A stretch of 64,000 bases of DNA, taken from the NCBI GenBank assembly GCA_964019135.1, contig OZ025258.1:2232001-2296000 (forward strand), written 5' to 3'. The position numbers and the translations under genes are program-made. Of the stretch, positions 14,320 to 44,600 are shown piece after piece. Origin of the DNA: Arenicola marina (Eukaryota; Annelida; Polychaeta; Arenicolidae). How positions within the stretch are numbered: position 1 is the stretch's first letter; each line of letters starts with the position of its first letter. Below the pieces are notes generated by a model that saw nothing but the letters and a program-made list of their open reading frames with translations, had not been told where the DNA came from and did not search any database.

Positions 14320-14800
14320 GAGTAGCTTACCTTTGCTCGTTAGACCCACGTGATCAAGTAGCTTACACTTGCTCGTTAGACCCACGTGATAAAGCAGCTT
14401 ACTTTGCTCGTTAGACCCACGTGATCAAGTAGCTTATCTTTGCTCGCTGGACCCACGTGACCAAGTAGCTCACCTTTGCTCGTTAGACCCACGTGATCAA
14501 CTAGCTTATCTTTGCTCGTTAGACCCACGTCATCAAGTAGCTTATCTTTGCTCGTTAGACCCACTTGATCAAGTAGCCTATCTTTGCTCGTTAGATCCAC
14601 GTGATCAAGTAGCTTACCCTTGTTCGTTAGACCGTGATCAAGTAACTTACCTTTGCTTGTTAGACCCACGTGATCAAGTAGTTTACCTTCGCTCGTTAGA
14701 CCCACGTGATCAAGCAGCTTACCTTTGCTCGTTAGACCCACGTGATCAAGCAGCTTACCTTTGCTCGTTAGACCCACGTGATCAAGTACTTTATCCTTGT
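14320..14800. repeat. 36-bp array with an E-box in nearly every unit
   Basis: About 13 copies of a 36-bp unit lie 0.6-1.1 kb upstream of the predicted start of the secreted-protein gene. Most units carry CACGTG within CCCACGTGATCAAG. On the minus strand each unit also has a donor-like CAAAG-GTAAGC. One unit has CACGTCATC and another CACTTGATC, so a few E-boxes are lost. Confidence 0.9.
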
Positions 14801-20608: not shown

Positions 20609-21597
20609 TAATAATAATAATCAGTTTATTGCCAAAAGAAAACACAAATTACATTCATTGAGTACATCTTTACAATACATTTATAGTGGCAAGAGCAGAA
20701 GCCAAAGGCTTATTCGCTGGTATATGGTGAACGTGGTTAGAGTTGAAATTGATTTGCCAGCAAGCTAACAGAGAAAGAAAGCGAGAAGAGAACAGTCAAA
20801 AGTAAATAATTAAATAAATAAACATAAAAGTAAAGGAGCCATTGAATGTTGATTAACGTCTAGCACAGCTAGCCACAGTAAAAAAAAAAAAAAAAAAAAT
20901 GTAAAGATGTAAAGGCAACAGACTATTCAACAGTGACCGTGTTTAATATAATGCGTTTAACTTCTTTCTTAAACATGTATTTTGACGTGCAAAAATTTAC
21001 CTTTCTAAGCCATTTATTAAATATCCTGGGACCCGTGGTTCTTATTCCCTTCTCAGATAAAGTAGTCTTTGGTTTATGTACCCGCAGATGAGTAGACGCC
21101 CTTGTATTATAACTGTGTACTTGCGACGTTGGAGTAAATATATCAGCGATAGTCCTGGGAATTGTACCTTGGTAGTAATTATACATAGTTATAACTATTT
21201 TATATTCATTTAGATAAACAATTGGTATCAAATTATACTTTAAGAAAAGTGGTTTTGTGTGTGAAAGCCTTGGTACTCCCGATATTATTCTAATGGCTCT
21301 TTTCTGCAACGTAATGAGAGGTTTTAAATATTTATGACATGTACCGCCCCAAACTTCGTTGGCATAGTCAAGGTAAGGGTAAATAAAGCTGGAGTACAAG
21401 GTGCGTAGGGTGTCGCTGTTTAACAGCTTTCTTGCTTTCACCAAAATACCTATTCCCCGAGCAACCTTTCCCTTAATATATTGGATATGTTCATTCCATG
21501 TTAAATTAGCATCTAGTTGAACTCCTAAGAATTTCAGACTTGATACTTGCATAATTGTCTCTCCTGCAAGCCTAACCTCACCTAACCTAACAATCAA
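20603..21597 (-). mobile_element. 5'-truncated LINE, CR1/L2/Jockey-type, inserted into the 35-bp array
   Basis: A minus-strand frame (20923-21597, 224 codons, uninterrupted) encodes the thumb end of a non-LTR reverse transcriptase: FLGVQLDANLTWNEHI, LYSSFIYPYLDYANEVWG and LQKRAIRIISGVPR. The 3' end reads GGCAATAAACTGATT then ATT repeats (plus 20608-20632) instead of a poly-A tail, as in CR1/L2-like elements. CAATCAA flanks both ends and looks like a 7-bp target-site duplication, though the array itself contains that string. The 5' end is truncated inside the reverse transcriptase. Confidence 0.85.
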
Positions 21598-21700
21598 GGC
21601 TTAATGTGTGTCACAGGCAGCCAATCAATCACGGCTGTATGTGTCACAGGCAGTCAATCAAGGCTGTATGTGTGTCACAGGCAGCCAATCAATCAAGGTG
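21591..21700. repeat. 35-bp array, right part
   Basis: About three further copies of the unit seen at 19727-20608, resuming immediately after the LINE. Confidence 0.9.
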
Positions 21701-22077
21701 TCCACACAGCTGCGATGGCTGCACATTTGGACAGCAAGAGTCGTGTATGGGTTGTACATGTGAATACCTGTCTGATCCCTCAAGCCTATCCTCCGCACAC
21801 GGTCACAATACCCACCACCGTCTGTACCTCCATACGGGACAGCCTCTTGGACTGGTCTCCTGCGCGCGGGTTACAGTCAAGAAAAGAAGCACGAGTTCAG
21901 ACAACATATTAAACTGTTTATTAACCTTGTCGTGAGTCACATATACAGTGACGGTTTCGATTTACCGAGGCCCGCAAGGAGAATAGACACATTGATGAGG
22001 CGTGTGTCATATGAGTGTTCACGGCTTAGTAAGGACCGCATAGATTGGACAAATAAATCGAATATCTACATTTCCAC
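21701..22077. other. spacer downstream of TRMT44
   Basis: Unique sequence between the 35-bp and 24-bp arrays. It probably contains the TRMT44 polyadenylation site (see 21917-21922). No coding signal. Confidence 0.4.
21917..21922 (-). terminator. candidate TRMT44 polyadenylation signal
   Basis: AATAAA on the minus strand, followed downstream by a GT-rich stretch (TATGTTGTCTG). It is the first such hexamer I noticed after the TRMT44 stop. If used, the 3' UTR would include the whole 24-bp array, about 1.5 kb. Confidence 0.4.
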
Positions 22078-23431
22078 GCTGTACAGGTTACCCGCTAGCA
22101 CGCTGTACAAGTTGCCCTCTAGCACGCTGTACAGGTTGCCCGCTAGCACGCTGTACAAGTTGCCCGCTAGCACGCTGTAAAAGTTGGCCGTTAGCACACT
22201 GTACAGGTTGCCCGCTAGCACGCTGTACAGGTTGCCCCCTAGCAAGCTGTACAAGTTGCCCGCTAGCACGCTGTACAGGTTGCCCGCTAGCACGCTGTAC
22301 AAGTTGCCCGCTAGCACGCTGTACAAGTTGCCCGCTAGCACGCTGTACAGGTTGCCCGCTAGCACGCTGTACAAGTTGCCCGCTAGCACGCTGTACAGGT
22401 TGCCCGCTAGCACGCTGTACAACTTGCCCGCTAGCACGCTGTACAAGTTGCCCGCTAGCACGCTGTACAACTTGCCCGCTAGCACGCTGTACAAGTTGCC
22501 CGCTAGCACGCTGTACAAGTTGCCCGCTAGCACGTTGTACAGGTTGCCCTCTAGCACGCTGTACAAGTTGCCCTCTAGCACGCTGTACAAGTTGCCCGCT
22601 AGCACGCTGTACAGGTTGCCCGCTAGCACGCTGTACAAGTTGCCCGCTAGCACGCTGTACAAGTTGCCCTCTAGCACGCTGTACAAGTTGCCCGCTAGCA
22701 CGTTGTACAGGTTGCCCTCTAGCACGCTGTACAAGTTGCCCTCTAGCACGCTGTACAAGTTGCCCTCTAGCACGCTGTACAAGTTGCCCTCTAGCACGCT
22801 GTACAAGTTGCCCGCTAGCACGCTGTACAAGTTGCCCTCTAGCACGCTGTACAAGTTGCCCGCTAGCACGCTGTACAAGATGCCCGCTAGCACGCTGTAC
22901 AAGTTGCCCGCTAGCACGCTGTACAGGTTGCCCGCTAGCACGCTGTACAAGTTGCCCGCTAGCACGCTGTACAAGTTGCCCGCTAGCACGCTGTACAGGT
23001 TGCCCGCTAGCACGCTGTACAGGTTGCCCGCTAGCACGCTGTACAAGTTGCCCGCTAGCACGCTGTACAGGTTGCCCGCTAGCACGCTGTACAAGTTGCC
23101 CGCTAGCACGCTGTACAAGTTGCCCGCTAGCACGCTGTACAGGTTGCCCGCTAGCACGCTGTACAGGTTGCCCGCTAGCACGCTGTACAAGTTGCCCGCT
23201 AGCACGCTGTACAAGTTGGCCGTTAGCACACTGTACAGGTTTCCCGCTAGCACGCTGTAAAAGTTGGCCGTTAGCACACTGTACAGGTTGCCCGCTAGCA
23301 CGCTGTACAAGTTGGCCGTTAGCACACTGTACAGGTTTCCCGCTAGCACGCTGTAAAAGTTGCCCGCTAGCACGCTGTACAGGTTGCCCGCTAGCACGCT
23401 GTACAGGTTGCCCGCTAGCACGCCACCCGTA
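22078..23431. repeat. 24-bp array beginning in the last codons of TRMT44
   Basis: About 56 copies of a 24-bp unit, on the minus strand GCGTGCTAGCGGGCAACTTG plus TACA. The TRMT44 stop codon lies in the copy joined to the exon: GCG TGC TAG encodes Ala-Cys-stop at 23415-23423. Variants with GGCCGTTAGCACAC form a minor second type at both ends. Because 24 is a multiple of three, all minus frames are open; none is a protein. Confidence 0.95.
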
Positions 23432-23635
23432 AGTCCTCTTCCCCGTGGGCGAAGCGACACGACTCGGCCGGAAGCGGACAGCCATCAGGGTGATGCATAT
23501 TCATGTAACAGAGACGCTTCTTGGTCTGGACAGCTGCTTCCTTCTTTGACTTCGGCTTGCCTCGCTTGGGGTTGAAGCGGCGCTGCAGGTAGACATCGGA
23601 GGCCCAGTCACGCAGCTCCACAGCGCCCCCTTGAA
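23415..23635 (-). CDS. TRMT44: TRMT44 exon 12: C-terminal CCCH zinc finger, stop
   Basis: The exon opens TTCAAGGGGGCGCTGTGGAG, continuing Lys-Val-Gln-Gly from exon 11, and carries the finger CYMNMHHPDGCPLPAESC followed by RFAH. Its first 17 nt and acceptor are the source (or first copy) of the 52-bp array. Its last three codons belong to the 24-bp array, so both edges of this exon are array units. Confidence 0.93.
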
Positions 23636-26600
23636 CTGGGAGACAAGACAACAGTCAATTAATTCTACATCACAGCGCCCCCTTGAACTGGGAGACAAGA
23701 CAACAGTCAATTAATTCTACATCACAGCGCCCCCTTGAACTGGGAGACAAGACAACAGTCAGTTAATCCTACATTACAACGCCCCTTCAACTGGGAGACA
23801 AGACAACAGTCAGTTAATCCTACATTACAACGCCCCTTCAACTGGGAGACAAGACTACAGTCAGTTAATCCTACATTACAACGCCCCCTTCAACTGGGAG
23901 ACAAGACAACAGTCAGTTAATCCTACATTACAACGCCCCCTTCAACTGGGAGACAAGACAACAGTCAGTTAATCCTACATCACAGCGCCCCCTTGAAGTG
24001 GGAGACAAGACAACAGTCAGTTAATCCTACATCACAGCGACTCCTTGAACTGAGAGACAAGACAGGAGTCAGTTAATCATACATCACAGCGCCCCCTTGA
24101 AGTGGGAGACAAGACAACAGTCAGTTAATCCTACATCACAGCGCCCCCTTGAAGTGGGAGACAAGACAACAGTCAGTTAATCCTACATCACAGCGCCCCC
24201 TTGAACTGGGAGACAAGACAACAGTCAGTTAATCCTACATCACAGCGCCCCCTTGAAGTGGGAGACAAGACAACAGTCAGTTAATCCTACATCACAGCGA
24301 TTCCTTGAACTGAGAGACAAGACAGGAGTCAGTTAATCCTACATCACAGCGCCCCCTTGAAGTGGGAGACAAGACAACAGTCAGTTAATCCTACATTACA
24401 ACGCCCCCTTGAACTGGGAGACAAGACAACAGTCAGTTAATCCTACATTACAACGCCACCTTCAACTGGGAGACAAGACAACAGTCAGTTAATCCTACAT
24501 TACAACGCCCCCTTGAAGTGGGAGACAAGACAACAGTCAGTTAATCCTACATTACAACGCCCCCTTCAACTGGGAGACAAGACAACAGTCAGTTAATCCT
24601 ACATTACAACGCCCCCTTCAACTGGGAGACAAGACAACAGTCAGTTAATCCTACATTACAACGCCCCCTTCAACTGGGAGACAAGACAACAGTCAGTTAA
24701 TCCTACATCACAGCGCCCCCTTGAAGTGGGAGACAAGACAACAGTCAGGTAATCCTACATCACAGCGCCCCCTTGAAGTAGGAGACAAGACAACAGTCAG
24801 TTAATCCTACATCACAGCGCCCCCTTGAAGTGGGAGAAAAGACAACAGTCAGTTAATTCTACATCACAGCGCCCCCTTGAAGTGGGAGACAAGACAACAG
24901 TCAGTTAATCCTACATCACAGCGCCCCCTTGAAGTGGGAGACAAGACAACAGTGAGTTAATCCTACATCACAGCGCCCCCTTGAAGTAGGAGACAAGACA
25001 ACAGTCAGTTAATCCTACATCACAGCGCCCCCTTGAAGTGGGAGACAAGACAACAGTCAGGTAATCCTACATCACAGCGCCCCCTTGAAGTAGGAGACAA
25101 GACAACAGTCAGTTAATACTACATCACAGCGCCCCCTTGAACTGGGAGACAAGACAACAGTCAGTTAATCCTACATTACAACGCCCCCTTGAAGTGGGAG
25201 ACAAGACAACAGTCAGTTAATCCTACATTACAACGCCCCCTTCAACTGGGAGACAAGACAACAGTCAGTTAATCCTACATCACAGCGCCCCCTTGAACTG
25301 GGAGACAAGACAACAGTCAGTTAATCATACATCACAGCGCCCCCTTGAACTAGGAGACAAGACAACCGTCGGTTAATCCTACATCACAGCGCCCCCTTGA
25401 ACTGGGAGACAAGACAACAGTCAGTTAATCCTACATCACAGCGCCCCCTTCAACTGGGAGACAAGACAACAGTCAGTTAATCCTACATCACAGCGCCCCC
25501 TTGAAGTGGGAGACAAGACAACAGTCAGTTAATACTACATCACAGCGCCCCCTTGAAGTAGGAGACAAAACAAGTTAGTTAATCGTACATCACAGCGCCC
25601 CCTTCAACTAGGAGACAAGACAACAGTCAGTAAATCCTACATCACAGCGCCCCCTTGAAGTGGGAGACAAGACAACAGTCAATTATTTCTACATCACAGC
25701 GCCCCCTTGAAGTGGGACACAAGACAACAGTCAGTTAATACTACATCACAGCGCCCCCTTGAACTGGGAGACAAGACAACAGTCAGTTAATACTAAATCA
25801 CAGCGCCCCCTTGAACTGGGAGTCAAGACAACAGTCAGTTAATCCTACATTACAACGCCCCCTTGAACTGGGAGACAAGACAACAGTCAGTTAATCCTAC
25901 ATTACAACGCCCCCTTGAAGTGGGAGACAAGACAACAGTCAGTTAATCCTACATTACAACGCCCCCTTGAACTGGGAGACAAGACAACAGTCAGTTAATC
26001 CTACATCACAGCGCCCCCTTCAACTGGGAGACAAGACAACAGTCAGTTAATCATACATCACAGCGCCCCCTTGAAGTGGGAGACAAGACAACAGTCAGTT
26101 AATCCTACATTACAACGCCCCCTTGAAGTGGGAGACAAGACATGAGTCAGTTAATCCTACATCACAGCGCCCCCTTGAACTGGGAGACAAGACAACAGTC
26201 AGTTAATCATACATCACAGCGCCCCCTTGAAGTGGGAGACAAGACAACAGTCAGTTAATCCTACATCACAGCGCCCCCTTGAACTGGGAGACAAGACAAC
26301 AGTCGGTTAATACTACATCACAGCGCCCCTTTGAACTAGGAGACAAGACAACAGTCAGTTAATCCTACATCACAGCGCCCCCTTGAACTGAGAGACAAGA
26401 CAGAAGTCAGTAAATCTTACATCACAGCGCCCCTTTGAACTGGGAGACAAGACAACAGTCAGTTAATCCTACATCACATCGCCCCCTTGAACTGAGAGAC
26501 AAGACAGAAGTCAGTAAATCTTATATCACAGCGCCCCTTTGAACTGGGAGACAAGACAACAGTCAGTTAATCCTACATCACAGCGCCCCTTTGAACTAGG

Positions 26601-29600
26601 AGACAAGACAACCGTCGGTTAATCCTACATCACAGCGCCCCCTTGAACTGGGAGACAAGACAACAGTCAGTTAATCCTACATCACAGCGCCCCCTTCAAC
26701 TGGGAGACAAGACAACAGTCAGTTAATCCTACATCACAGCGCCCCCTTGAAGTGGGAGACAAGACAACAGTCAGTTAATACTACATCACAGCGCCCCCTT
26801 GAACTGGGAGACAAGACAACAGTCAGGTAATACTACATCACAGCGCCCCCTTGAACTGGGAGACAAGACAACAGTCAGTTAATCCTACATCACAGCGCCC
26901 CCTTCAACTGGAAGACAAGACAACAGTCAGTTAATCCTACATCACAGCGCCCCCTTGAAGTGGGAGACAAGACAACAGTCAGTTAATCCTACATTACAAC
27001 GCCCCCTTGAACTGGGAGACAAGACAACAGTCAGTTAATCCTACATCACAGCGCCCCCTTGAAGTGGGAGACAAGACAACAGTCAGTAAATCCTACATTA
27101 CAACGCCCCCTTGAACTGGGAGACAAGACAACAGTCAGTTAATCCTACATCACAGCGCCCCCTTGAAGTGGGAGACCAGACAACAGTCAGTTAATACTAC
27201 ATCACAGCGCCCCCTTCAACTGGGAGACAAGACAACAGTCAGGTAATACTACATCACAGCGCCCCCTTGAACTGGGAGACAATACAACAGTCAGTTAACC
27301 CTACATCACAGCGCCCCCTTGAAGTGGGAGACAAGACAACAGTCAGTAAATCTTACATTACAACGCCCCCTTGAACTGGGAGACAAGACAACAGTCAGTT
27401 AATCCTACATCACAGCGCCCCCTTGAAGTGGGAGACAAGACAACAGTCAGTTAATACTACATCACAGCGCCCCCTTGAACTGGGAGACAAGACAACAGTC
27501 AGGTAATACTACATCACAGCGCCCCCTTGAACTGGGAGACAAGACAACAGTCAGTTAATCCTACATCACAGCGCCCCCTTCAACTGGGAGACAAGACAAC
27601 AGTCAGTTATTTCTACATCACAGCGCCCCCTTGAACTGGGAGACAAGACAACAGTCAGTTAATCCTACATCACAGCGCCCCCTTGAAGTGGGAGACAAGA
27701 CAACAGTCAGTTAATCCTACATTACAACGCCCCCTTGAACTGGGAGACAAGACAACAGTCAGTTAATCCTACATCACAGCGCCCCCTTGAACTGGGAGAC
27801 AAGACAACAGTCAGTTAATCCTACATCACAGCGCCCCCTTGAAGTGGGAGACAAGACAACAGTCAGTAAATCCTACATCACAGCGCCCCCTTGAAGTGGG
27901 AGACAAGACAACAGTCAGTTATTTCTACATCACAGCGCCTCCTTGAAGTGGGACACAAGACAACAGTCAGTTAATACTACATCACAGCGCCCCCTTGAAC
28001 TGGGAGACAAGACAGAAGTCAGTAAATCTTACATCACAGCGCCCCCTTGAAGTGGGAGACAAGACAACAGTCAGTAAATCCTACATCACAGCGCCCCCTT
28101 GAAGTGGGAGACAAGACAACAGTCAGTTAATCCTACATCACAGCGCCCCCTTGAACTGGGAGACAAGACAACAGTCAGTTAATCCTACATCACAGCGCCC
28201 CCTTGAAGTGGGAGACAAGACAACAGTCAGTAAATCCTACATCACAGCGCCCCCTTGAACTGGGAGACAAGACAACAGTCAGTTAATCCTACATCACAGC
28301 GCCCCCTTGAACTGGGAGACAAGACAACAGTCAGTTAATCCTACATCACAGCGCCCCCTTGAAGTGGGAGACAAGACAACAGTCAGTAAATCCTACATCA
28401 CAGCGCCCCCTTGAACTGGGAGACAAGACAACAGTCAGTTAATCCTACATCACAGCGCCCCCTTGAACTGGGAGACAAGACAACAGTCAGTTAATTCTAT
28501 ATCACAGCGCCCCCTTGAAGTGGAGACAAGACAACAGTCAGTTAATACTACATCACAGCGCCCCCTTGAACTGGGAGACAAGACAACAGTCAGGTAATAC
28601 TACCTCACAGCGCCCCCTTGAACTGGGAGACAAGACAACAGTCAGTTAATCCTACATCACAGCGCCCCCTTGAACTGGGAGACAAGACAACAGTCAGTTA
28701 ATCCTACATCACAGCGCCCCCTTGAAGTGGGAGACAAGACAACAGTCAGTAAATCCTACATCACAGCGCCCCCTTGAACTGGGAGACAAGACAACAGTCA
28801 GTTAATCCTACATCACAGCGCCCTCTTGAACTGGGAGACAAGACAACAGTCAGTTAATCATACATCACAGCGCCCCCTTGAAGTGGGAGACAAGACAACA
28901 GTCAGTTAATCCTACATTACAACGCCCCCTTGAAGTGGGAGACAAGACAACAGTCAGTTAATCCTACATCACAGCGCCCCCTTGAACTGGGAGACAAGAC
29001 AACAGTCAGTTAATCATACATCACAGCGCCCCCTTGAAGTGGGAGACAAGACAACAGTCAGTTAATCCTACATCACAGCGCCCCCTTGAACTGGGAGACA
29101 AGACAACAGTCGGTTAATACTACATCACAGCGCCCCTTTGAACTAGGAGACAAGACAACAGTCAGTTAATCCTACATCACAGCGCCCCCTTGAACTGAGA
29201 GACAAGACAGAAGTCAGTAAATCTTACATCACAGCGCCCCTTTGAACTGGGAGACAAGACAACAGTCAGTTAATCCTACATCACATCGCCCCCTTGAACT
29301 GAGAGACAAGACAGAAGTCAGTAAATCTTATATCACAGCGCCCCTTTGAACTGGGAGACAAGACAACAGTCAGTTAATCCTACATCACAGCGCCCCTTTG
29401 AACTAGGAGACAAGACAACCGTCGGTTAATCCTACATCACAGCGCCCCCTTGAACTGGGAGACAAGACAACAGTCAGTTAATCCTACATCACAGCGCCCC
29501 CTTCAACTGGGAGACAAGACAACAGTCAGTTAATCCTACATCACAGCGCCCCCTTGAAGTGGGAGACAAGACAACAGTCAGTTAATACTACATCACAGCG

Positions 29601-32600
29601 CCCCCTTGAACTGGGAGACAAGACAACAGTCAGGTAATACTACATCACAGCGCCCCCTTGAACTGGGAGACAAGACAACAGTCAGTTAATCCTACATCAC
29701 AGCGCCCCCTTCAACTGGAAGACAAGACAACAGTCAGTTAATCCTACATCACAGCGCCCCCTTGAAGTGGGAGACAAGACAACAGTCAGTTAATCCTACA
29801 TTACAACGCCCCCTTGAACTGGGAGACAAGACAACAGTCAGTTAATCCTACATCACAGCGCCCCCTTGAAGTGGGAGACAAGACAACAGTCAGTAAATCC
29901 TACATTACAACGCCCCCTTGAACTGGGAGACAAGACAACAGTCAGTTAATCCTACATCACAGCGCCCCCTTGAAGTGGGAGACCAGACAACAGTCAGTTA
30001 ATACTACATCACAGCGCCCCCTTCAACTGGGAGACAAGACAACAGTCAGGTAATACTACATCACAGCGCCCCCTTGAACTGGGAGACAATACAACAGTCA
30101 GTTAACCCTACATCACAGCGCCCCCTTGAAGTGGGAGACAAGACAACAGTCAGTAAATCTTACATTACAACGCCCCCTTGAACTGGGAGACAAGACAACA
30201 GTCAGTTAATCCTACATCACAGCGCCCCCTTGAAGTGGGAGACAAGACAACAGTCAGTTAATACTACATCACAGCGCCCCCTTGAACTGGGAGACAAGAC
30301 AACAGTCAGGTAATACTACATCACAGCGCCCCCTTGAACTGGGAGACAAGACAACAGTCAGTTAATCCTACATCACAGCGCCCCCTTCAACTGGGAGACA
30401 AGACAACAGTCAGTTATTTCTACATCACAGCGCCCCCTTGAACTGGGAGACAAGACAACAGTCAGTTAATCCTACATCACAGCGCCCCCTTGAAGTGGGA
30501 GACAAGACAACAGTCAGTTAATCCTACATTACAACGCCCCCTTGAACTGGGAGACAAGACAACAGTCAGTTAATCCTACATCACAGCGCCCCCTTGAACT
30601 GGGAGACAAGACAACAGTCAGTTAATCCTACATCACAGCGCCCCCTTGAAGTGGGAGACAAGACAACAGTCAGTAAATCCTACATCACAGCGCCCCCTTG
30701 AAGTGGGAGACAAGACAACAGTCAGTTATTTCTACATCACAGCGCCTCCTTGAAGTGGGACACAAGACAACAGTCAGTTAATACTACATCACAGCGCCCC
30801 CTTGAACTGGGAGACAAGACAGAAGTCAGTAAATCTTACATCACAGCGCCCCCTTGAAGTGGGAGACAAGACAACAGTCAGTAAATCCTACATCACAGCG
30901 CCCCCTTGAAGTGGGAGACAAGACAACAGTCAGTTAATCCTACATCACAGCGCCCCCTTGAACTGGGAGACAAGACAACAGTCAGTTAATCCTACATCAC
31001 AGCGCCCCCTTGAAGTGGGAGACAAGACAACAGTCAGTAAATCCTACATCACAGCGCCCCCTTGAACTGGGAGACAAGACAACAGTCAGTTAATCCTACA
31101 TCACAGCGCCCCCTTGAACTGGGAGACAAGACAACAGTCAGTTAATCCTACATCACAGCGCCCCCTTGAAGTGGGAGACAAGACAACAGTCAGTAAATCC
31201 TACATCACAGCGCCCCCTTGAACTGGGAGACAAGACAACAGTCAGTTAATCCTACATCACAGCGCCCCCTTGAACTGGGAGACAAGACAACAGTCAGTTA
31301 ATTCTATATCACAGCGCCCCCTTGAAGTGGAGACAAGACAACAGTCAGTTAATACTACATCACAGCGCCCCCTTGAACTGGGAGACAAGACAACAGTCAG
31401 GTAATACTACCTCACAGCGCCCCCTTGAACTGGGAGACAAGACAACAGTCAGTTAATCCTACATCACAGCGCCCCCTTGAACTGGGAGACAAGACAACAG
31501 TCAGTTAATCCTACATCACAGCGCCCCCTTGAAGTGGGAGACAAGACAACAGTCAGTAAATCCTACATCACAGCGCCCCCTTGAACTGGGAGACAAGACA
31601 ACAGTCAGTTAATCCTACATCACAGCGCCCTCTTGAACTGGGAGACAAGACAACAGTCAGTTAATTCTATATCACAGCGCCCCCTTGAAGTGGAGACAAG
31701 ACAACAGTCAGTTAATCCTACATCACAGCGCCCCCTTAAAGTGGGAGACAAGACAACAGTCAGTTAATCCTACATCACAGCGCCCCCTTGAAGTGGGAGA
31801 CAAGACAACAGTCAGTTAATCCTACATCACAGCGCCCCCTTGAACTGGGAGACAAGACAACAGTCAGTTAATTCTACATCACAGCGCCCCCTTGAACTGG
31901 GAGACAAGACAACAGTCAGGTAATACTACATCACAGCGCCCCCTTGAACTGGGAGACAAGACAACAGTCAGTTAATCCTACATCACAGCGCCCCCTTCAA
32001 CTGGAAGACAAGACAACAGTCAGTTAATCCTACATCACAGCGCCCCCTTGAAGTGGGAGACAAGACAACAGTCATTTAATCCTACATTACAACGCCCCCT
32101 TGAACTGGGAGACAAGACAACAGTCAGTTAATCCTACATCACAGCGCCCCCTTGAAGTGGGAGACAAGACAACAGTCAGTTAATACTACATCACAGCGCC
32201 CCCTTCAACTGGGAGACAAGACAACAGTCAGGTGATACTACATCACAGCGCCCCCTTGAACTGGGAGACAATACAACAGTCAGTTAACCCTACATCACAG
32301 CGCCCCCTTGAAGTGGGAGACAAGACAACAGTCAGTAAATCTTACATTACAGCGCCCCCTTGAAGTGGGAGACAAGACAACAGTCAGTTAATCCTACATC
32401 ACAGCGCCCCCTTGAAGTGGGAGACAAGACAACAGTCAGTTAATACTACATCACAGCGCCCCCTTGAACTGGGAGACAAGACAACAGTCAGGTAATACTA
32501 CATCACAGCGCCCCCTTGAACTGGGAGACAAGACAACAGTCAGTTATTTCTACATCACAGCGCCCCCTTGAACTGGGAGACAAGACAACAGTCAGTTAAT

Positions 32601-35600
32601 CCTACATCACAGCGCCCCCTTGAAGTGGGAGACAAGACAACAGTCAGTTAATCCTACATTACAACGCCCCCTTGAACTGGGAGACAAGACAACAGTCAGT
32701 TAATCCTACATCACAGCGCCCCCTTGAACTGGGAGACAAGACAACAGTCAGTTAATCCTACATCACAGCGCCCCCTTGAAGTGGGAGACAAGACAACAGT
32801 CAGTAAATCCTACATCACAGCGCCTCCTTGAAGTGGGAGACAAGACAACAGTCAGTTATTTCTACATCACAGCGCCTCCTTGAAGTGGGACACAAGACAA
32901 CAGTCAGTTAATACTACATCACAGCGCCCCCTTGAACTGGGAGACAAGACAGAAGTCAGTAAATCTTACATCACAGCGCCCCCTTGAAGTGGGAGACAAG
33001 ACAACAGTCAGTAAATCCTACATCACAGCGCCCCCTTGAAGTGGGAGACAAGACAACAGTCAGTTAATCCTACATCACAGCGCCCCCTTGAACTGGGAGA
33101 CAAGACAACAGTCAGTAAATCCTACATCACAGCGCCCCCTTGAAGTGGGAGACAAGACAACAGTCAGTAAATCCTACATCACAGCGCCCCCTTGAACTGG
33201 GAGACAAGACAACAGTCAGTTAATCCTACATCACAGCGCCCCCTTGAACTGGGAGACAAGACAACAGTCAGTTAATTCTATATCACAGCGCCCCCTTGAA
33301 GTGGAGACAAGACAACAGTCAGTAAATCCTACATCACAGCGCCCCCTTCAACTGGGAGACAAGACAACAGTCAGTTAATCCTACATCACAGCGCCCCCTT
33401 GAACTGGGAGACAAGACAACAGTCAGTTAATCCTACATCACAGCGCCCCCTTGAAGTGGGAGACAAGACAACAGTCAGTAAATCCTACATCACAGCGCCC
33501 CCTTGAACTGGGAGACAAGACAACAGTCAGTTAATCCTACATCACAGCGCCCCCTTGAACTGGGAGACAAGACAACAGTCAGTTAATTCTATATCACAGC
33601 GCCCCCTTGAAGTGGAGACAAGACAACAGTCAGTTAATACTACATCACAGCGCCCCCTTGAACTGGGAGACAAGACAACAGTCAGGTAATACTACCTCAC
33701 AGCGCCCCCTTGAACTGGGAGACAAGACAACAGTCAGTTAATCCTACATCACAGCGCCCCCTTGAACTGGGAGACAAGACAACAGTCAGTTAATCCTACA
33801 TCACAGCGCCCCCTTGAAGTGGGAGACAAGACAACAGTCAGTAAATCCTACATCACAGCGCCCCCTTGAACTGGGAGACAAGACAACAGTCAGTTAATCC
33901 TACATCACAGCGCCCCCTTGAACTGGGAGACAAGACAACAGTCAGTTAATTCTATATCACAGCGCCCCCTTGAAGTGGAGACAAGACAACAGTCAGTTAA
34001 TCCTACATCACAGCGCCCCCTTAAAGTGGGAGACAAGACAACAGTCAGTTAATCCTACATCACAGCGCCCCCTTGAAGTGGAGACAAGACAACAGTCAGT
34101 TAATCCTACATCACAGCGCCCCCTTGAACTGGGAGACAAGACAACAGTCAGTTAATTCTATATCACAGCGCCCCCTTGAAGTGGAGACAAGACAACAGTC
34201 AGTTAATCCTACATCAGAGCGCCCCCTTGAAGTGGAGACAAGACAACAGTCAGTAAATCCTACATCACAGCGCCCCCTTGAAGTGGAGACAAGACAACAG
34301 TCAGTTAATCCTACATCACAGCGCCCCCTTGAAGTGGGAGACAAGACAACAGTCAGTTAATCCTACATCACAGCGCCCCCTTGAAGTGGGAGACAAGACA
34401 ACAGTCAGTTAATCCTACATCACAGCGCCCCCTTGAAGTGGGAGACAAGACAACAGTCAGTTAATCCTACATCACAGCGCCTCAGACAACAGTTCGTGTT
34501 AGGGCAGGGCGAGGACACGGGTGAAAACGACTGAGCTGCCAAGTTAAGTCTACTAACACTCTCCCACAGGCAGACACCTACTGAACCCACTGATGTTGAT
34601 AGCAGGGCAGCCAGGTAACAGAAGATGGAACTGATGCCCTTTCAAAGACATTGTGACACTCACTTGAATGTGACCTATTGTACATCATGTCCGGCATAAG
34701 ACGTCCCGCCACTGGCTTCGCACTTCTACCCAGAGCAGGATATGATGTGTGTGTTAAACCCATCCACCACGACAAGTAATGCCGTATGAGGCCAGCCTGC
34801 CATGTCATATGGTGGTCCCCTGGGGCCAGCCTGCCATGTCATATGGTGGTCTCCTGAGGCCAGCCTGCCATGTCATATGGTGGTCCCCTGAGGCCAGCCT
34901 GCCATGTCATTTGGTGGTCCCCTGAGGCCAGCCTGCCATGTCATATTGTGGTCCCCCTGAGGCCAGCCGGCCATGTCATATGGTGGTCCCCTGAGGCCAG
35001 CCTGCCATGTCATATGGTGGTCCCCTGAGGCCAGCCTGCCATGTCATATGGTGGTCCCCTGAGGCCAGCCTGCCATGTCATATGGTGGTCCCCTGAGGCC
35101 AGCCTGCCATGTCATATGGTGGTCCCCCTGAGGCCAGCCTGCCATGTCATATGGTGGTCCCCTGGGGCCAGCCTGCCATGTCATATGGTGGTCCCCTGAG
35201 GCCAGCCTGCCATGTCATATGGTGGCCCCTGAGGCCAGCCTGCCATGTCATATGGTGGTCCCCTGAGGCCAGCCTGCCATGTCATATGGTGGTCCCCCTG
35301 AGGCCAGCCTGCCATGTCATATGGTGGTCCCCTGAGGCCAGCCTGCCATGTCATATGGTGGTCCCCCTGAGGCCAGCCTGCCATGTCATATGGTGGTCCC
35401 CCTGAGGCCAGCCTGCCATGTCATATGGTGGTCCCCCTGAGGCCAGCCTGCCATGTCATATGGTGGTCCCCTGAGACCAGCCTGCCATGTCATATGGTGG
35501 TCCCCTGGGGCCAGCCTGCCATGTCATATGGTGGTCCCCTGAGGCCAGCCTGCCATGTCATATGGTGGCCCCTGAGGCCAGCCTGCCATGTCATATGGTG

Positions 35601-38600
35601 GTCCCCTGGGGCCAGCCTGCCATGTCGTATGGTGGTCCCCTGAGGCCAGCCTGCCATGTCATATGGTGGTCCCCTGAGGCCAGCCTGCCATGTCATATGG
35701 TGGTCCCTGAGGCCAGCCTACCATGTCATATGCTGGTCCCCTGAGGCCAGCCTGCCATGTCGTATGGTGGTCCCCTGAGGCCAGCCTGCCATGTCATATG
35801 GTGGTCCCCTGAGGCCAGCCTGCCATGTCGTATGGTGGTCCCCTGAGGCCAGCCTGCCATGTCATATGGTGGTCCCCTGAGGCCAGCCTGCCATGTCATA
35901 TGGTGGCCCCTGAGGCCAGCCTGTCATGTCGTATGGTGGTCCCCTGAGGCCAGCCTGCCATGTCATATGGTGGTCCCCTGAGGCCAGCCTGCCATGTCAT
36001 ATGGTGGTCCCCTGAGGCCAGCCTGCCATGTCATATGGTGGTCCCCCTGAGGCCAGTCTGCCATGTCATATGGTGGTCCCCTGAGGCCAGCCTGCCATAT
36101 CATATGGTGGTCCCCTGAGGCCAGCCTGCCATGTCATATGGTGGCTTCTGAGGCCAGCCTGCCATGTCATATGGTGGTCCCCTGAGGCCAGCCTGCCATG
36201 TCGTATGGTGGTCCCCCTGAGGCCAGTCTGCCACTAGCTATATGCCCCACCTTTGAAGACGTAGTGATAGTTTCTCAGCAGGGTCTGCAGACCGCCGCAT
36301 TGGTTCTTCAGCAGCTGCAAGGTGTCGGCGTCAAACAGACCGACCAACTCGACCAGCGGCACGCTTCCTGCAACACACATAGGCAAGGGTTAACGGGAAC
36401 GGAAACATCCCAATGACATGACCTGGAGGTCAAGGGCAGGAACTGGAAGACAAGGACATGACCTAGAGCTCAATGACTAGGTTCGGAGGACAATGACATA
36501 ATCTAGAGGTCAAGAACATGGTGCCGAGGTCAATGACATGATCTAGAGGTCAAGGACATGATATACAGGACAATGACATAACCTAGAGGTCTAGGACATG
36601 ATCCGGAGCTCAAGGACATGATCTAAATTTCAAGGACCTGTTTCGGAGGTCAGTGACCTGATCTACAGGTCAAGGACATGACATGGAGGACAATAACAGT
36701 CTAGAGGTGCATGACATGGTCCGGGGGTCAATGACATGATCTAGAGATCAAGGACATGGTCCGGAGGTCAATGACATGATCTAGAGGTCAAGACCATGGT
36801 TCAGAGGTCAATGACATGATCTACATCCACATCCATATCTCTTGCTAGGACACCATAAGAACTACAGCCATATCTCTTGCTAGGACACCATAAGAACTAC
36901 AGCCATATCTCTTGCTAGGACACCATAAGAACTACAGCCATATCTCTTGCTAGGAAACCATAAGAACTACAGCCATATCTCTTGCTAGGAAACCATAAGA
37001 ACTACAGCCATATCTCTTGCTAGGAAACCATAAGAACTACAGCCATATCTCTTGCTAGGAAACCATGACAACTACAGCCATATCTTTTGCTGGGAAACCA
37101 TAAGAACTACAGCCATATCTCTTGCTAGGAAACCATAACAACTACAGCCATATTTCTTGCTAGGAAACCAAAACAACTACAGCCATATCTCTTGCTAGGA
37201 AACTATAACAACTACAGCCATATCTCTTGCTAGGACACCATAATAACTACAGCCATATCTCTTGCTAGGAAACCATAACAACTACCGCCATATCTCTTGC
37301 TAGGAAACCATGACAACTACAGCCATATCTTTTGCTGGGAAACCATAACAACTACAGCCATATCTCTTGCTAGGAAACCATAAGAACTGCAGCCATATCT
37401 CTTGCTAGGAAACCATAAGAACTACAGCCATATCTCTTGCTAGGAAACCATGACAACTACAGCCATATCTCTTGCTAGGAAACCATAACAACTACAGTCA
37501 TATCTCTTGCTAGGAAACCATAAGAACTACAGCCATATCTCTTGCTAGGAAACCATAAGAACTACAGCCATATCTCTTGCTAGGAAACCATGACAACTAC
37601 AGCCATATCTTTTGCTGGGAAACCATAACAACTACAGCCATATCTCTTGCTAGGAAACCATAAGAACTGCAGCCATATCTCTTGCTAGGAAACCATAAGA
37701 ACTACAGCCATATCTCTTGCTAGGAAACCATGACAACTACAGCCATATCTCTTGCTAGGAAACCATAACAACTACAGTCATATCTCTTGCTAGGAAACCA
37801 TAAGAACTACAGCCATATCTCTTGCTAGGAAACCATAAGAACTACAGCCATATCTCTTGCTAGGAAACCATAAGAACTACAGCCATATCTCTTGCTAGGA
37901 AACCATAAGAACTACAGCCATATCTCTTGCTTGGACACCATAAGAACTACAGCCATATCTCTTGCTAGGAAACCATAAGAACTACCGCCATATCTCTTGC
38001 TAGGACACCATAATAACTACAGCCATATCTCTTGCTAGGAAACCATAAGAACTACAGCCATATCTCTTGCTAGGACACCATAATAACTACAGCCATATCT
38101 CTTGCTAGGAAACCATAACAACTACCGCCATATCTCTTGCTAGGAAACCATAATAACTAGAGCCATATCTCTTGCTAGGAAACCATAAGAACTACAGCCA
38201 TATCTCTTGCTAGGACACCATAATAACTACAGCCATATCTCTTGCTAGGAAACAATAACAACCACATCCATGTTGCTTGCTCCACGACATCACATTATAG
38301 GACACACAACATACTGATTCCTACCTCCTTTCCGCCACGTCCTGCCCTGAGGAAGCTCCAACACGCCGCCATCTTGTTCCAGCAGCTTCCAGAAGACCTT
38401 GGCCGCCATGTTGTCCTTCACGTCTCTGGCCATACTGACACAGTTTCTGGTCGTCACCACCGCGCTTCTCGGCAGGAAGTCGCTGGCCGAGTGCTGAGCG
38501 AGCGCCCCGCCCCCTGAGGCCATAAGGCAAGGAAAGGACTTCATTACAGACAACGTAAGCGGCAGCTACTCCTGTCCCAACCGACACACTATACGCACAG

Positions 38601-41600
38601 TAACTAACGCTTACCATGGTGACAGTACTTGGTCTTACTGCCAGTGCTATGTTTACCATGGTGACAGTACTTGGTTTTACTGCCAGTGCTATACTTGCCA
38701 TGGTTACAGTACTTGGTCTTACTGCCATTGCTATACTTGCCATGGTGACAGTACTTGGTATTACTTCCAGTGCTATACTTGCCATGGTTACAGTACTTGG
38801 TCTTACTGCCATTGCTATACTTGCCATGGTGACAGTACTTGGTATTACTTCCAGTGCTATACTTGCCATGGTGACAGTACTTGGTATTACTTCCAGTGCT
38901 ATACTTGCCATGGTTACAGTACTTGGTCTTACTGCCATTGCTATACTTGCCATGGTGACAGTACTTGGTATTACTTCCAGTGCTATACTTGCCATGGTTA
39001 CAGTACTTGGTCTTACTTCCAGTGCCATACTTGCCATGGTGACAGTAAGTCTTAAATTCAGATTCCACTACCCACCTGTCCCCTGGTGAGCCGCTGTGTC
39101 CCGCCCCGAAGGGTCTAGGGGTGAGGCTGGTGGGGGGCGTTGGTCTGGCGGACGCTGTTCCGGGGTTGGTGGAGGCCGGGGCCGACTGTCGATGTACGCC
39201 TGCATCCGGGATCTGACGACCGACTGGCCTTCCGGATACGCCCTCTTCTGGCCAATGAAGCACACCTGGAGCGGAAGCCATACACGGGCGTCATGTAGGC
39301 CGGGGTTAGACATGTAGGCCGGAGTTAGACATGTAGGCCGGGGTTAGACATGTAGGCCGGAGTTAGACATGTAGGTCGGGATTAGACCTGTAGGCCGGGG
39401 TTAGACATGTAGGCCGGTGTTAGACATGTAGGCCGGTGTTAGACATGTAGGACGAGGTTAGACATGTAGGCCGGTGTTAGACATGTAGGCTGGTGTTAGA
39501 CATGTAGGCCGGGGTTAGACATGTAGGCCGGGGTTAGACATGTAGGCCGGTGTTAGACATGTAGGCCGATGTCAGCCATGTAGGCCGGTGTTAGACATGT
39601 AGGCCGGTGTTAGACATGTAGGCCGGTGCTAGACATGTAGGCTGGTGATAGACATGTAGGCCGGTGTTAGACATGTAGGTCGGAGTTAGACATGTAGACG
39701 GTAGACCTACCCTCTTGGTGGACGGGATCCTCAGAGTGTCCTCCTCCACGCTGAAGCCACAGACCTGACCCACCTCCCGGACATAGTTGAGGTAGGTGCG
39801 ATACTGACTGAGGCCAGCCGTCTTCTTGTTGAACTTGGCGAAGAAGTCCCAGGGACAGCATGGCAGCACAAAGAAGCGGCAGTCAGGGGCCGACCTGGAG
39901 GATGACAAGGGACAGCTCTCTCACTCTCCTCGCACACCTGCCCGCCATGGGGACGCGACACCTCATCCACCTGGCGGTGAAACCTGCCCGCCAGGGGGAC
40001 GCTACACCTCATCTAGCCCTGTTGCATGCCCCTCCCTGGCTTATCCGCTCTGGGGAGCGGGCCGGAGGGCCATGAAGCCAGTGTCGGTTGCGATTGTTGA
40101 TTTAAAAATCAGCGCCCTTCGGCCGTCGATTGCAGAAAGTACAGAAATAAACGGTCCTTATCAATTTGTCAAGTTGTTCTTCATACCTTTATAGTTCCAA
40201 GGGCAATGAGATTGAAAACAAACAAAATCCACCACTTTCTGTACTGGTGAAAGTTTTCAACAACAATTTTCAACAACTCTCCCCGCCGCCATGTCGCTGT
40301 TACGTCACAGTTCTCGTCGATCTCCCGGCAGAGGGCGTTACGCTTACGCCATAGTCCGAGGAAAAATTGTGATGCGAGGAACGAGCTCCGTCTGCCGGGA
40401 GATCGACGAGAACTGTGACGTGACGATTGTTTTCAATCTCATTGCCCTTGGAACTATAAAGGTATAAAGAACAACTTGACAAATTGATCAGGACCGTTTA
40501 TTTCTGTACTTTCTGCAATCGACGGCCGAAGGGCGCTGATTTTTAAATCAACGCTCACAACCGAAACTGGCTTCATGGCTCTCTCTCGTCTCCTTTAGGT
40601 GCGAGGTCAAGAGAGCCATGTGTCAAGGCTACACCTCATCCACCTGGCGGTGAAACCTGCCGGCCAGGGGGACGCTACATCTCATCCACCTGGCGGTGAA
40701 ACCTGCCCACCAGGGGGACGCTACACCTCATCCACCTGGCGGTGAAACCTGCCCGCCAAGGGAACGCGACAATGGAGCTCACCTGGAGGCGATTACTGGT
40801 AGCCACAGTGTCAGTAGACAATGGAGCTCACCTGGAGGCGATTACTGGTAGTCACAGTGTCAGTAGACAATGGAGCTCACCTGGAGGCGATTACTGGTAG
40901 TCAGTGTCAGTAGACAATGGAGCTCACCTGGAGGCGATTACTGGTAGCCACGGTGTCAGTAGACAATGGAGCTCACCTGGAGGCGATTACTGATAGCCAC
41001 GGTGTCAGTAGACAATGGAGCTCACCTGGAGGCGATTACTGGTAGTCACTGTGTCAGTACACAATGGAGCTCACCTCGAGGCGATTACTGGTAGCCACGG
41101 TGTCAGTGGGCAATGGAGCTCACCTGGAGGCGATTACTGGTAGTCACAGTGTCAGTAGACAAGAGAGCTCACCTGGAGGCGATTACTGGTAGTCAGTGTC
41201 AGTAGACAATGGAGCTCACATGGAGGCGATTACTGGTAGCCACGGTGTCAGTAGACAATGGAGCTCACCTGGAGGCGATTACTGGTAGCCACGGTGTCAG
41301 TGGGCAATGGAGCTCACCTGTAGGCGATTACTGGTAGTCAGTGTCAGTAGACAATGGAGCTCACCTGGAGGCGATTACTGGTAGTCACAGTGTCAGTAGA
41401 CAAGAGAGCTCACCTGGAGGCGATTACTGGTGGTCAGTGTCAGTAGACAATGGAGCTCACCTGGAGGCGATTACTGGTAGCCACGGTGTCAGTAGACAAT
41501 GGAGCTCACCTGGAGGCGATTACTGGTAGCCACGGTGTCAGTGGGCAATGGAGCTCACCTGGAGGCGATTACTGGTAGCCACGGTGTCAGTAGACAATGG

Positions 41601-44600
41601 AGCTCACCTGGGGGCGATTACTAGTAGCCACGGTGTCAGTAGACAATGGAGCTCACCTGGGGGCGATTACTGGTAGCCACAGTGTAACTAGACAATGGAG
41701 CTCACCTGGAGGCGATTACTGGTAGCCACGGTGTCAGTAGACAATGGAGCTCACCTGCAGGCGATTATTGGTAGTCACAGTGTCAGTGGACAATGGAGCT
41801 CACCTGGGGGCGATTACTGGTAGTCACAGTGTCAGTGGACAATGGAACTCACCTGGAGGCGATTACTGGTAGTCACAGTGTCAGTAGACAATGGAGCTCA
41901 CCTGGGGGCGATTACCGGTAGCCACGGTGTCAGTGGGGAATGGAGCACACCTGGGGGCGATTACTGGTAGTCACAGTGTCAGTAGACAATGGGAGCTCAC
42001 ATGGAGGCGATTACCGGTAGCCACGGTGTCAGTGGGCAATGGAGCACACCTGGGGGCGATTACTGGTAGCCACGGTGTCAGTAGACAATGGAGCTCACCT
42101 GGAGGCGATTACTGGTAGTCACAGTGTCAGTAGACAATGGAGCTCACCTGTAGGCGATTACTGGTAGCCACGGTGTCAGTGGGCAATGGAGCTCACCTTG
42201 AGGCGATTACTGGTAGCCACGGTGTCAGTTCGTCGCTGTGATTGCCTATCAACCAGTCGTAACCGGGAAACAATTGGTCTCCGGTGGGCTGAATGGCTTC
42301 TTCCTGAACAGACACCATGTTTACTGGTCACACACAATGGACTGGAGTCACTGAGTGGTTAATCACGAACTACTGTGTTGGTCAAAGCAGGGTCAGTGTG
42401 AGGGCGATGGCGAGGGTCAGTGTGAGGGTCAGCGTTAGGTCGAGGATCAGGGCGAGGGTCAGGGAAATTGCCGGATATCGTACGCAAATTACTTCGATAT
42501 TGATACTTCAAGGGGTAAAGTACATTGTAAAGTACATTGTAAAGTACATTGTAGAGTATATTACGTACAAGAATTAAAAACCCACAAGCTGGCATAATAA
42601 TACAGGTGACACGAACCAAAGTCAGTGCAACTGTACCCAAGGGTGGATACGATTTCGAAAAAAGAATGATGCTGTTTAGTCGCAGTTTGCTTAGGTCTAG
42701 GTCATCACTATGATAGGTAGAGACGGGATCTCACCTTGAGGTTGAACTTGGGTCCGTACCAGTCCCATATCTTCCGTCGCCGTACATCCAGTCCAAGCCC
42801 ACGGTGCTGGAGGACGGACACACACACAGACATCAAATTGGGTGAGCCCAACGACAATAGCTGTGGCAACCGATATCACTTTACGTCACTTTACCAGCTC
42901 GCCACTTTAAAACATGCGGAGGTGTAAGGGGAAACGATACATTCAAAACCCATGACGGTCGATTGTAAACTAACTGAGCGACTTATATGAATGTATTAAT
43001 GCATGGCGTAAAATGGACTCACCCCTTCTGATGCCAAGATGTAGACGAGCAATCCGTTTCCACAACCCAGATCCACAAACGATTGCTTTTGGCAGAGCTT
43101 CTTCTGTCTGCGCTCTTCCTCCCACAACACCTTGAAATAAAACATGAAAACTGTCACAACTTTCACAAGGTTCCGTACCACGAAGGTGATAAGTAAGAAC
43201 AAAAACCGACAGTTGGCCATCTTCAGACGTGAGAGGCGTACATAACCACAAGGAGGATACGCAGACGTGAGAGGCGTACATAACCACGAGGAGGATACGC
43301 AGACGTGAGAGGCGTACATAACCACAAGGAGGATACGCAGACGTGAGGCGTACATAACCACAAGGAGGATACGCAGACGTGAGAGGCGTACATAACCACA
43401 AAGAGGATACGCAGACGTGAGGCGTACATAACCACAAGGAGGATACGCAGACGTGAGAGGCGCACATAACCACAAGGAGGATACGCAGACGTGAGGCGTA
43501 CATAACCACAAGGAGGATACGCAGACGTGAGGCGTACATAACCACAAGGAGGATACGCAGACGTGAGAGGCGTACATAACCACGAGGAGGATACGCAGAC
43601 GTGAGGCGTACATAACCACGAGGAGGATACGCAGACGTGAGAGGCGTACATAACCACTAGGAGGATACGCAGACGTGAGAGGCGTACATAACCAAAAGGA
43701 GGATACGCAGACGTGAGAGGCGTACATAACCACGAGGAGGATACGCAGACGTGAGAGGCGTACATAACCACAAGGAGGATACGCAGACGTGAGGCGTACA
43801 TAACCACAAGGAGGATACGCAGACGTGAGAGGCGTACATAACCACGAGGAGGATACGCAGACGTGAGGCGTACATAACCACGAGGTGGATACGCAGATGT
43901 GAGAGGCGTACATAACCACAAGGAGGATACGCAGACGTGAGAGGCGTACATAACCACGAGGAGGATACGCAGACGTGAGAGGCGTACATAACCACAAGGA
44001 GGATACGCAGACGTGAGGCGTACATAACCACAAGGAGGATACGCAGACGTGAGAGGCGTACATAACCACAAGGAGGATACGCAGACGTGAGAGGCGTACA
44101 TAACCACAAGGAGGATACGCAGACGTGAGAGGCGTACATAACCACGAGGAGGATACGCAGACGTGAGGCGTACATAACCACGAGGTGGATACGCAGATGT
44201 AAGAGGCGTACATAACCACGAGGTGGATACGCAGATGTGAGAGGCGTACATAACCACAAGGAGGATACGCAGACGTGAGAGGCGTACATAACCACGAGGA
44301 GGATACGCAGACGTGAGGCGTACATAACCACGAGGAGGATACGCAGACGTGAGGCGTACATAACCACAAGGAGGATACGCAGACGTGAGACGTACATAAC
44401 CACGAGGAGGATACGCAGACGTGAGAGGCGTACATAACCACAAGGAGGATACGCAGACGTGAGAGGCGTACATAACCACAAGGAGGATACGCAGTAAGTA
44501 ATTTGCATTCCTGAGTTCGAATCAGGCCTCGGGCACCTAAGCTGGAACATGTTCCATTCATTCATCCGTCATCGTCCTTGGAGGTTCCTCGGCCAAGTTT

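Follow-up and report, generated by a model that had tools for sequence, protein, structure and literature searches.

A 52-bp minisatellite carrying the acceptor of the last coding exon of TRMT44, compared with the mirage repeats of amphioxus

Known repeats at splice junctions

In amphioxus, minisatellite-like tandem repeats that lie across exon-intron boundaries, on either the donor or the acceptor side, have been described as "mirages", and many, though not all, of their copies carry the AG or GT (PMC3087553, PMC3902484). The loci concerned are Adh3, the globin genes BflGb6 and BflGb9, TnC and PGBD5 (the last two from PMC3902484). The two haplotypes of BflGb6 contain 6 and 3 units, each 150-160 bp long, whereas BflGb9 has one duplicate and the Adh3 units measure 10-72 bp (PMC3087553, PMC3902484). 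Here we compare with these mirages a 52-bp minisatellite that occupies positions 23619-34481 (minus strand) of a 64,000-nt stretch of genomic DNA (contig OZ025258.1, positions 2,232,001 to 2,296,000; hereafter the window), where it multiplies the acceptor of the last coding exon of the gene for tRNA (uracil-O2-)-methyltransferase (TRMT44). The initial annotation of this DNA had recognised no named class for such repeats, which overlooks the mirages already described in amphioxus (PMC3087553, PMC3902484).

Structurally, the 52-bp array is a mirage. Its unit spans the exon-intron boundary (identity to the terminal copy is 0.96-0.98 from -20 up to exon position +17 and 0.29 thereafter), the splice dinucleotide is found in many, not all, of the copies (AG in 122 of the 208 decoys, i.e. 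the copies other than the real acceptor), and both sides of exons are affected in this animal, with donor arrays at 40768-42229 of the window and at two mitochondrial-carrier loci (L026 and L081, see below). One difference lies in the scale: the TRMT44 array has 209 copies, versus 6, 3 or one duplicate in the amphioxus globins. Among the further traits of mirages, the same reports mention boundary copies that escape homogenisation, length instability (also somatic) and a cephalochordate range (PMC3087553, PMC3902484), and the Adh3 data together with reverse-transcription PCR of the globins suggested that regular splicing is undisturbed by them (PMC3087553).

Related phenomena exist in other animals. 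The human 6-16 (IFI6) minisatellite reportedly provides multiple splice donors, as the title of Turri et al. 1995 has it, and is thus similar to the present case in that a minisatellite multiplies a splice site; the TRMT44 52-bp unit, however, multiplies an acceptor, whereas the IFI6 repeat, going by that title, provides donors in a transcript. The 49-bp array of the same TRMT44 gene does multiply a donor in the genomic sequence. Human variable internal tandem repeats at exon-intron boundaries, which are located in segmental duplications, were found by RNA comparison and have units of on average 30 bp in four copies, resemble the present arrays in that minisatellite expansion at exon edges alters gene structure (PMC2812944). 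In earthworm metallothionein genes there are intronic minisatellites, as well as fourth-exon duplications that are absent from the transcript; the likeness consists in long minisatellite arrays within the intron of an annelid gene, but splice-site copies within the arrays are not reported in the accessible part of that paper (PMC12783039). Among the matches listed in our literature search, the term "mirage" for such repeats is used solely in PMC3087553 and PMC3902484, and no further case of a splice-junction minisatellite was recognised among them, most subscription journals lying outside the search.

The 52-bp array and the last coding exon of TRMT44

Tandem Repeats Finder (TRF) returns the array at 23619-34481 with a period of 52, 209.2 copies and 94% matches, and wraparound alignment resolves it into 209 full copies and a 9-nt partial copy with zero insertions; the initial annotation had given about 208 copies. 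Read in the sense of the minus strand, the unit is ATGTAGGATTAACTGACTGTTGTCTTGTCTCCCAG followed, across the splice site, by TTCAAGGGGGCGCTGTG, i.e. a branch-point-like motif, a pyrimidine tract, the AG and exon nucleotides 1-17, which amounts to 35 intron nt and 17 exon nt multiplied in tandem at a single place. An AG is present in 123 of the full copies (122 decoys and the real acceptor) and an AC in the other 86, so that the initial figure of about 200 near-identical upstream acceptors has to be lowered to 122.

Relative to the terminal copy, the mean identity of the 208 other copies is 0.84 at -35 to -21 and 0.96 at -20 to -1, continues at 0.98, 0.98 and 0.96 over exon bases 1-17, and is then 0.29 at +18 to +37; the same edge profile is seen in a subset of 163 copies (chosen by exact match beside the AG). 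This bears out both the composition first ascribed to the unit (pyrimidine tract, AG and the first 17 exon nt) and the expectation that matches at 52-bp steps would cross the AG. The array comprises 61 distinct full units that are interspersed, and a T at unit position 13 is restricted to the last two copies and one other (3/209; single assembled haplotype).

Within the assembly (867 Mb in 762 contigs, the array being on a 43-Mb contig), a 29-nt pattern of the unit with at most 2 mismatches has 192 matches, and the window alone has 192 as well; at 2 mismatches the unit is therefore confined to the TRMT44 locus, which rules out a genome-wide satellite. For a 201-nt piece of the exon, the assembly contains a single match. 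An in-frame protein repeat is likewise ruled out, by stops in all three frames of the unit consensus.

The minus-strand gene that contains the array was identified as TRMT44 from ten coding exons, which join in phase to 512 residues with a match to Pfam PF07757 (E 2.5e-33). Upstream coding exons at 46950-46669, 44738-44670, 43130-43023, 42806-42735 and 42303-42197 each have a tblastn match, as have the first and third of the following three (39894-39711, 39265-39076 and 38513-38325), while exon 39265-39076 gave no tblastn match from the 7 tested homologues. The penultimate coding exon (36251-36367, also supported by tblastn) ends in the donor AAAG/GTGGGG, and the last (23415-23635) ends in the stop TAG. 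An N-terminal exon at 48087-47667 does not match the ten-exon model in phase, and at least one exon must therefore be absent from the model. The initial assignment to TRMT44 stands; the number given there to the exon, 12, is provisional, the model having ten in-phase coding exons and one N-terminal exon that does not fit.

An intron of 12,615 nt separates the last two coding exons, and the 52-bp array fills the greater part of it. By phase and homology, the real acceptor (AG at 23636-23637) is the terminal copy of the array in the sense of transcription, as the initial annotation had it: the junction from 36251 to 23635 encodes GGLQTLLRNYHYVFK-V-QGGAVELR, the stretch of 24 residues around it has an equal length in 119 of 120 homologues (26 residues in the remaining one), and of 7 homologues compared by tblastn six start at 23636 and the seventh at 23726. 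The last exon has an intact frame with 36-44% identity to all 7 tested homologues (7/7), because of which the terminal acceptor is presumably used; the conservation also rules out a pseudogene. The exon carries a C-x9-C-x6-C-x3-H tail, which we take to be CCCH-like, and for which Pfam reported nothing in the search of the joined product.

The host of the array apparently is a non-chordate animal, probably a lophotrochozoan and perhaps an annelid, and would lie outside the cephalochordate range described for mirages. The best matches of TRMT44 (the 120 best of 1,521) are molluscan with 48-52% identity, besides a nemertean with 62% over half of the query. For a neighbouring phosphatase, Capitella (310 bits) is the closest among the named matches, with Lottia at 274 and Owenia at 265 and two others higher. 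No match named Branchiostoma is among the best 120 of 1,521 for TRMT44 or among all 51 for the phosphatase (51/51), which speaks against a cephalochordate and led us to discard amphioxus as the source of the window. The trees, in which no cephalochordate row was included, either place the window sequences on the side of the lophotrochozoans, though weakly supported, or leave them unresolved.

Choice of the acceptor and possible use of the decoys

The decoy closest to the real acceptor lies 52 nt upstream of it and matches its copy at 52 of 52 nt, and therefore the branch region, the tract, the AG and exon nucleotides 1-17 cannot distinguish the real site. Over -20 to +3 as many as 81 of the 208 decoys are identical to it, so that any score on that stretch alone must be equal, and since the six nearest decoys have kept their AG (6/6), the closest rivals are not silenced. 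Hairpin masking of the decoys was rejected, as folding of the last 15 copies (one run) predicted the real site to be no more open than its neighbours.

The explanation that we favour, with moderate confidence, is that of a mirage-type splice-junction minisatellite with a chance founder, array turnover, a selected terminal copy and a downstream context that chooses the acceptor. The founder unit would have straddled the splice junction by chance, after which turnover (block duplication and the spread of variants) may have enlarged the array and purifying selection would have tied the terminal copy to the reading frame. The splicing machinery would rely on what follows the real acceptor, namely the remainder of the coding exon together with the poly(A) end (terminal-exon definition); it seems that this downstream context would have to decide, because within the unit the real acceptor and its neighbour are indistinguishable. 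The terminal copy is thus probably chosen through downstream exon definition. Where a decoy is occasionally used, the resulting protein would be truncated and lack the CCCH-like tail, and such noise would be tolerated.

Decoy splicing would have a rather uniform outcome. All 122 AG decoys lead to a stop before the first unit ends, the tail being 7 residues long in 118 cases and 5 or 9 residues long in two cases each, and among the 15 different tails VQGGAVM is the commonest (67/122). Whereas the initial annotation rightly held that each step of 52 nt (no multiple of 3) shifts the frame, the consequence is therefore not a multitude of frames, since every decoy stops after 5-9 residues and near-identical truncated proteins would be formed. 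Such a product would retain the methyltransferase domain and lose the C-x9-C-x6-C-x3-H tail. If decoys were regularly used, the array could act as a switch that raises this truncated isoform, for which the 122 intact AGs, the 81 copies identical at -20 to +3, the short tail common to all decoys, and the transcription of the first AG decoy 10.5 kb ahead of the real site can be adduced. We nevertheless consider such a switch unlikely, because the last exon is conserved and amphioxus mirages are reported to leave regular splicing undisturbed (PMC3087553, PMC3902484).

Other arrays and the origin of splice-junction repeats

The TRMT44 gene contains further minisatellites, all on the minus strand. 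A 49-bp array (40768-42229, 30 copies) lies over the donor of exon 42303-42197 and includes 33 exon nt; the GT is intact in all 30 copies, and translation that continues beyond the real donor would add SR before a stop, irrespective of the decoy. A 24-bp array (22075-23423) starts in the last TRMT44 codons and the stop codon (9 nt coding) and contains 56 in-frame stops, followed by an AATAAA poly(A) signal at 21922. The intron of the 52-bp array also holds a 34-bp minisatellite (34787-36233), which begins 17 nt past the donor and excludes the splice site.

Elsewhere in the window, a 53-bp minisatellite (3714-4719, minus strand) covers the donor CAG/GTCAGA of a putative exon of a second gene, with 3 exon nt and GT in 18 of 19 copies; the second gene has a weak match to enoyl-CoA hydratase (E 0.1). 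A 36-bp minisatellite at 14321-14788 has the donor-like unit CAAAG/GTAAG on the minus strand, and no exon was recognised among the open frames beside it. A minus-strand open frame at 20926-21600 resembles a piece of retrotransposon reverse transcriptase (PF00078 in 4 of 12 homologues), with no Pfam match of its own. Altogether, minisatellites make up 60.8% of the window, compared with 22.1% (44,196 of 200,000 bases) of a sample of twenty 10-kb regions placed by hand on eleven chromosome-scale contigs.

Sister arrays were found through the mitochondrial-carrier family, a search for which gave 141 matches in the assembly, including a ladder at 91-bp steps on one contig (C1). At this locus (L026, C1:2034600-2037700) the last 82 nt of a carrier exon and GTGAGTGAC are repeated in 19 copies that are 98% alike, with GTGAGT in all of them (19/19). 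Sixty further carrier-exon regions were taken in list order and regardless of repeats from the 141 rows, omitting the C1 ladder, small contigs and several rows with stops; they include paralogues (L039-L045 and L052) and so are not 60 independent exons. Exon edges were set by reading frame and consensus, and an array was counted, on reading the DNA, if its splice site is conserved and it includes 9 or more exon nt, which gave four of the 60 regions. Three of them multiply an acceptor: L084, a close analogue of the TRMT44 array (41-bp unit in at least 6 copies, with about 15 exon nt), L085 (99-bp unit in 2 copies, with about 33 exon nt) and L058 (94-bp unit, 3 copies seen, with about 9 exon nt). 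The fourth, L081, multiplies a donor in a unit of about 42 bp, and each of the 6 copies seen has the GT, in one case preceded by T. L046 was excluded, its donor array having at most about 2 exon nt, and L059, L061 and L077 were read and left out of the count. An automatic edge finder, itself weak, flagged 4 of 41 edges at strict scores (L031, L059, L081 and L084), of which L081 and L084 were upheld by reading, and 11 rows at looser scores. The paralogues L039-L045 and L052 are carrier genes that each have a 38-bp array 5-13 nt beyond the carrier match, which in L040 includes the stop codon.

As a second exon family, PF00069 gave matches that are mostly long single frames. Dozens of single-frame kinase matches, with frames of about 300 codons, are crowded at about 14-57 Mb of contig C3, and five more copies are spaced by about 8.5 kb at C5:5402476-5437356. 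On contigs C232, C330, C443, C465, C497, C504 and C652 the kinase matches have in-frame TAG/TAA and are without TGA; these contigs perhaps derive from a contaminant, for instance a ciliate, in which TAA/TAG code for an amino acid.

The conserved GTs bear on how the AC copies of the TRMT44 array arose. None of the other unit positions varies as much as the G of the AG, and 18 of the 52 are invariant; AC could have spread because false acceptors were removed, i.e. by selection that disables decoys. By our own reckoning, the chance of the most variable site falling on one of two pre-named positions is 2 in 52. Yet AC is the sole mutant type at the dinucleotide, as expected from one event spread by turnover, an AC unit still offers an AG six nt further on (CAAG), the six decoys nearest the real site retain theirs, and the donor arrays have kept GT in 30/30 (49-bp) and 19/19 (L026) copies, which together make such selection improbable.

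Splice junctions might also be preferred seeds of minisatellites, via a process coupled to transcription or splicing, as could be suspected from two TRMT44 arrays that include a splice site, a third that includes the stop codon, and the further cases in the carrier sample. In a null model, in which each TRMT44 array was collapsed to one unit and the units were dropped randomly (and re-drawn if inside exons), 1.46 of 12 arrays on average cross an edge and take in 10 nt or more on each side of it, with P(2 or more)=0.44 and P(3 or more)=0.17, the latter case counting the stop-codon array as the third. Of 585 random intronic 30-mers in the vicinity of the sampled carrier exons, 143 (24%) have a local repeat, versus 0/120 in a shuffled control, and this background can be set against the 4/60 exon regions in a rough way only, since the units differ and each region has up to two edges. 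In 5 of the 60 regions an array extends into the carrier match, and in 17 others arrays miss it by 1-56 nt. No preference for exon edges was thus seen in the TRMT44 null model or the carrier-region sample; targeting of splice sites was rejected, there being no excess over random founders or intronic background, and preferred seeding is already disfavoured and very improbable. Without an excess at exon edges, such arrays are most easily ascribed to minisatellite growth in general, which would have included a junction by accident.

Least probable of all, and very unlikely, is that the assembly has inflated a naturally short array, as an exact repeat of 51 copies might hint, since the 61 distinct units are interspersed, the contig measures 43 Mb, the genome as sampled commonly contains minisatellite arrays, and the finding would stand even with a short array.

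Several points nevertheless weigh against the combination of chance founder, turnover and downstream choice. The use of the terminal acceptor is something that we infer from the intact and conserved last exon. Instead of drift, the variability of the G (86/209) might reflect selection that acts against decoys, although the GTs retained in both donor arrays counter this. The mean of the null model depends on the overlap required and drops from 2.07 with 5 nt to 0.95 with 15 nt. Lastly, 51 consecutive copies are exactly repeated at a lag of 54 copies, which reflects either a recent block duplication or an assembly error, and in the latter case the number of copies may be wrong by about 54.

Studies of splice-site choice usually involve one or a small number of competing sites. 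Here, one natural intron presents 122 AG decoys, the nearest of which is identical over 52 nt, and any preference for the last copy must therefore stem from downstream context. What is new compared with the described mirages is the extreme copy number, the identity of the nearest decoy, the recurrence within the same gene and genome, and a host that is probably a lophotrochozoan. The findings suggest that mirage repeats are a by-product of a minisatellite-rich genome and, provided that the animal is correctly placed, they extend the known range of mirages to hosts other than amphioxus. Going further, and only tentatively, splice-junction minisatellites may be routine in the genes of this animal, with more than 100 near-identical acceptors being rejected through downstream context alone, and the length of the array could, via a nearly uniform truncated isoform, tune the ratio of two TRMT44 proteins.

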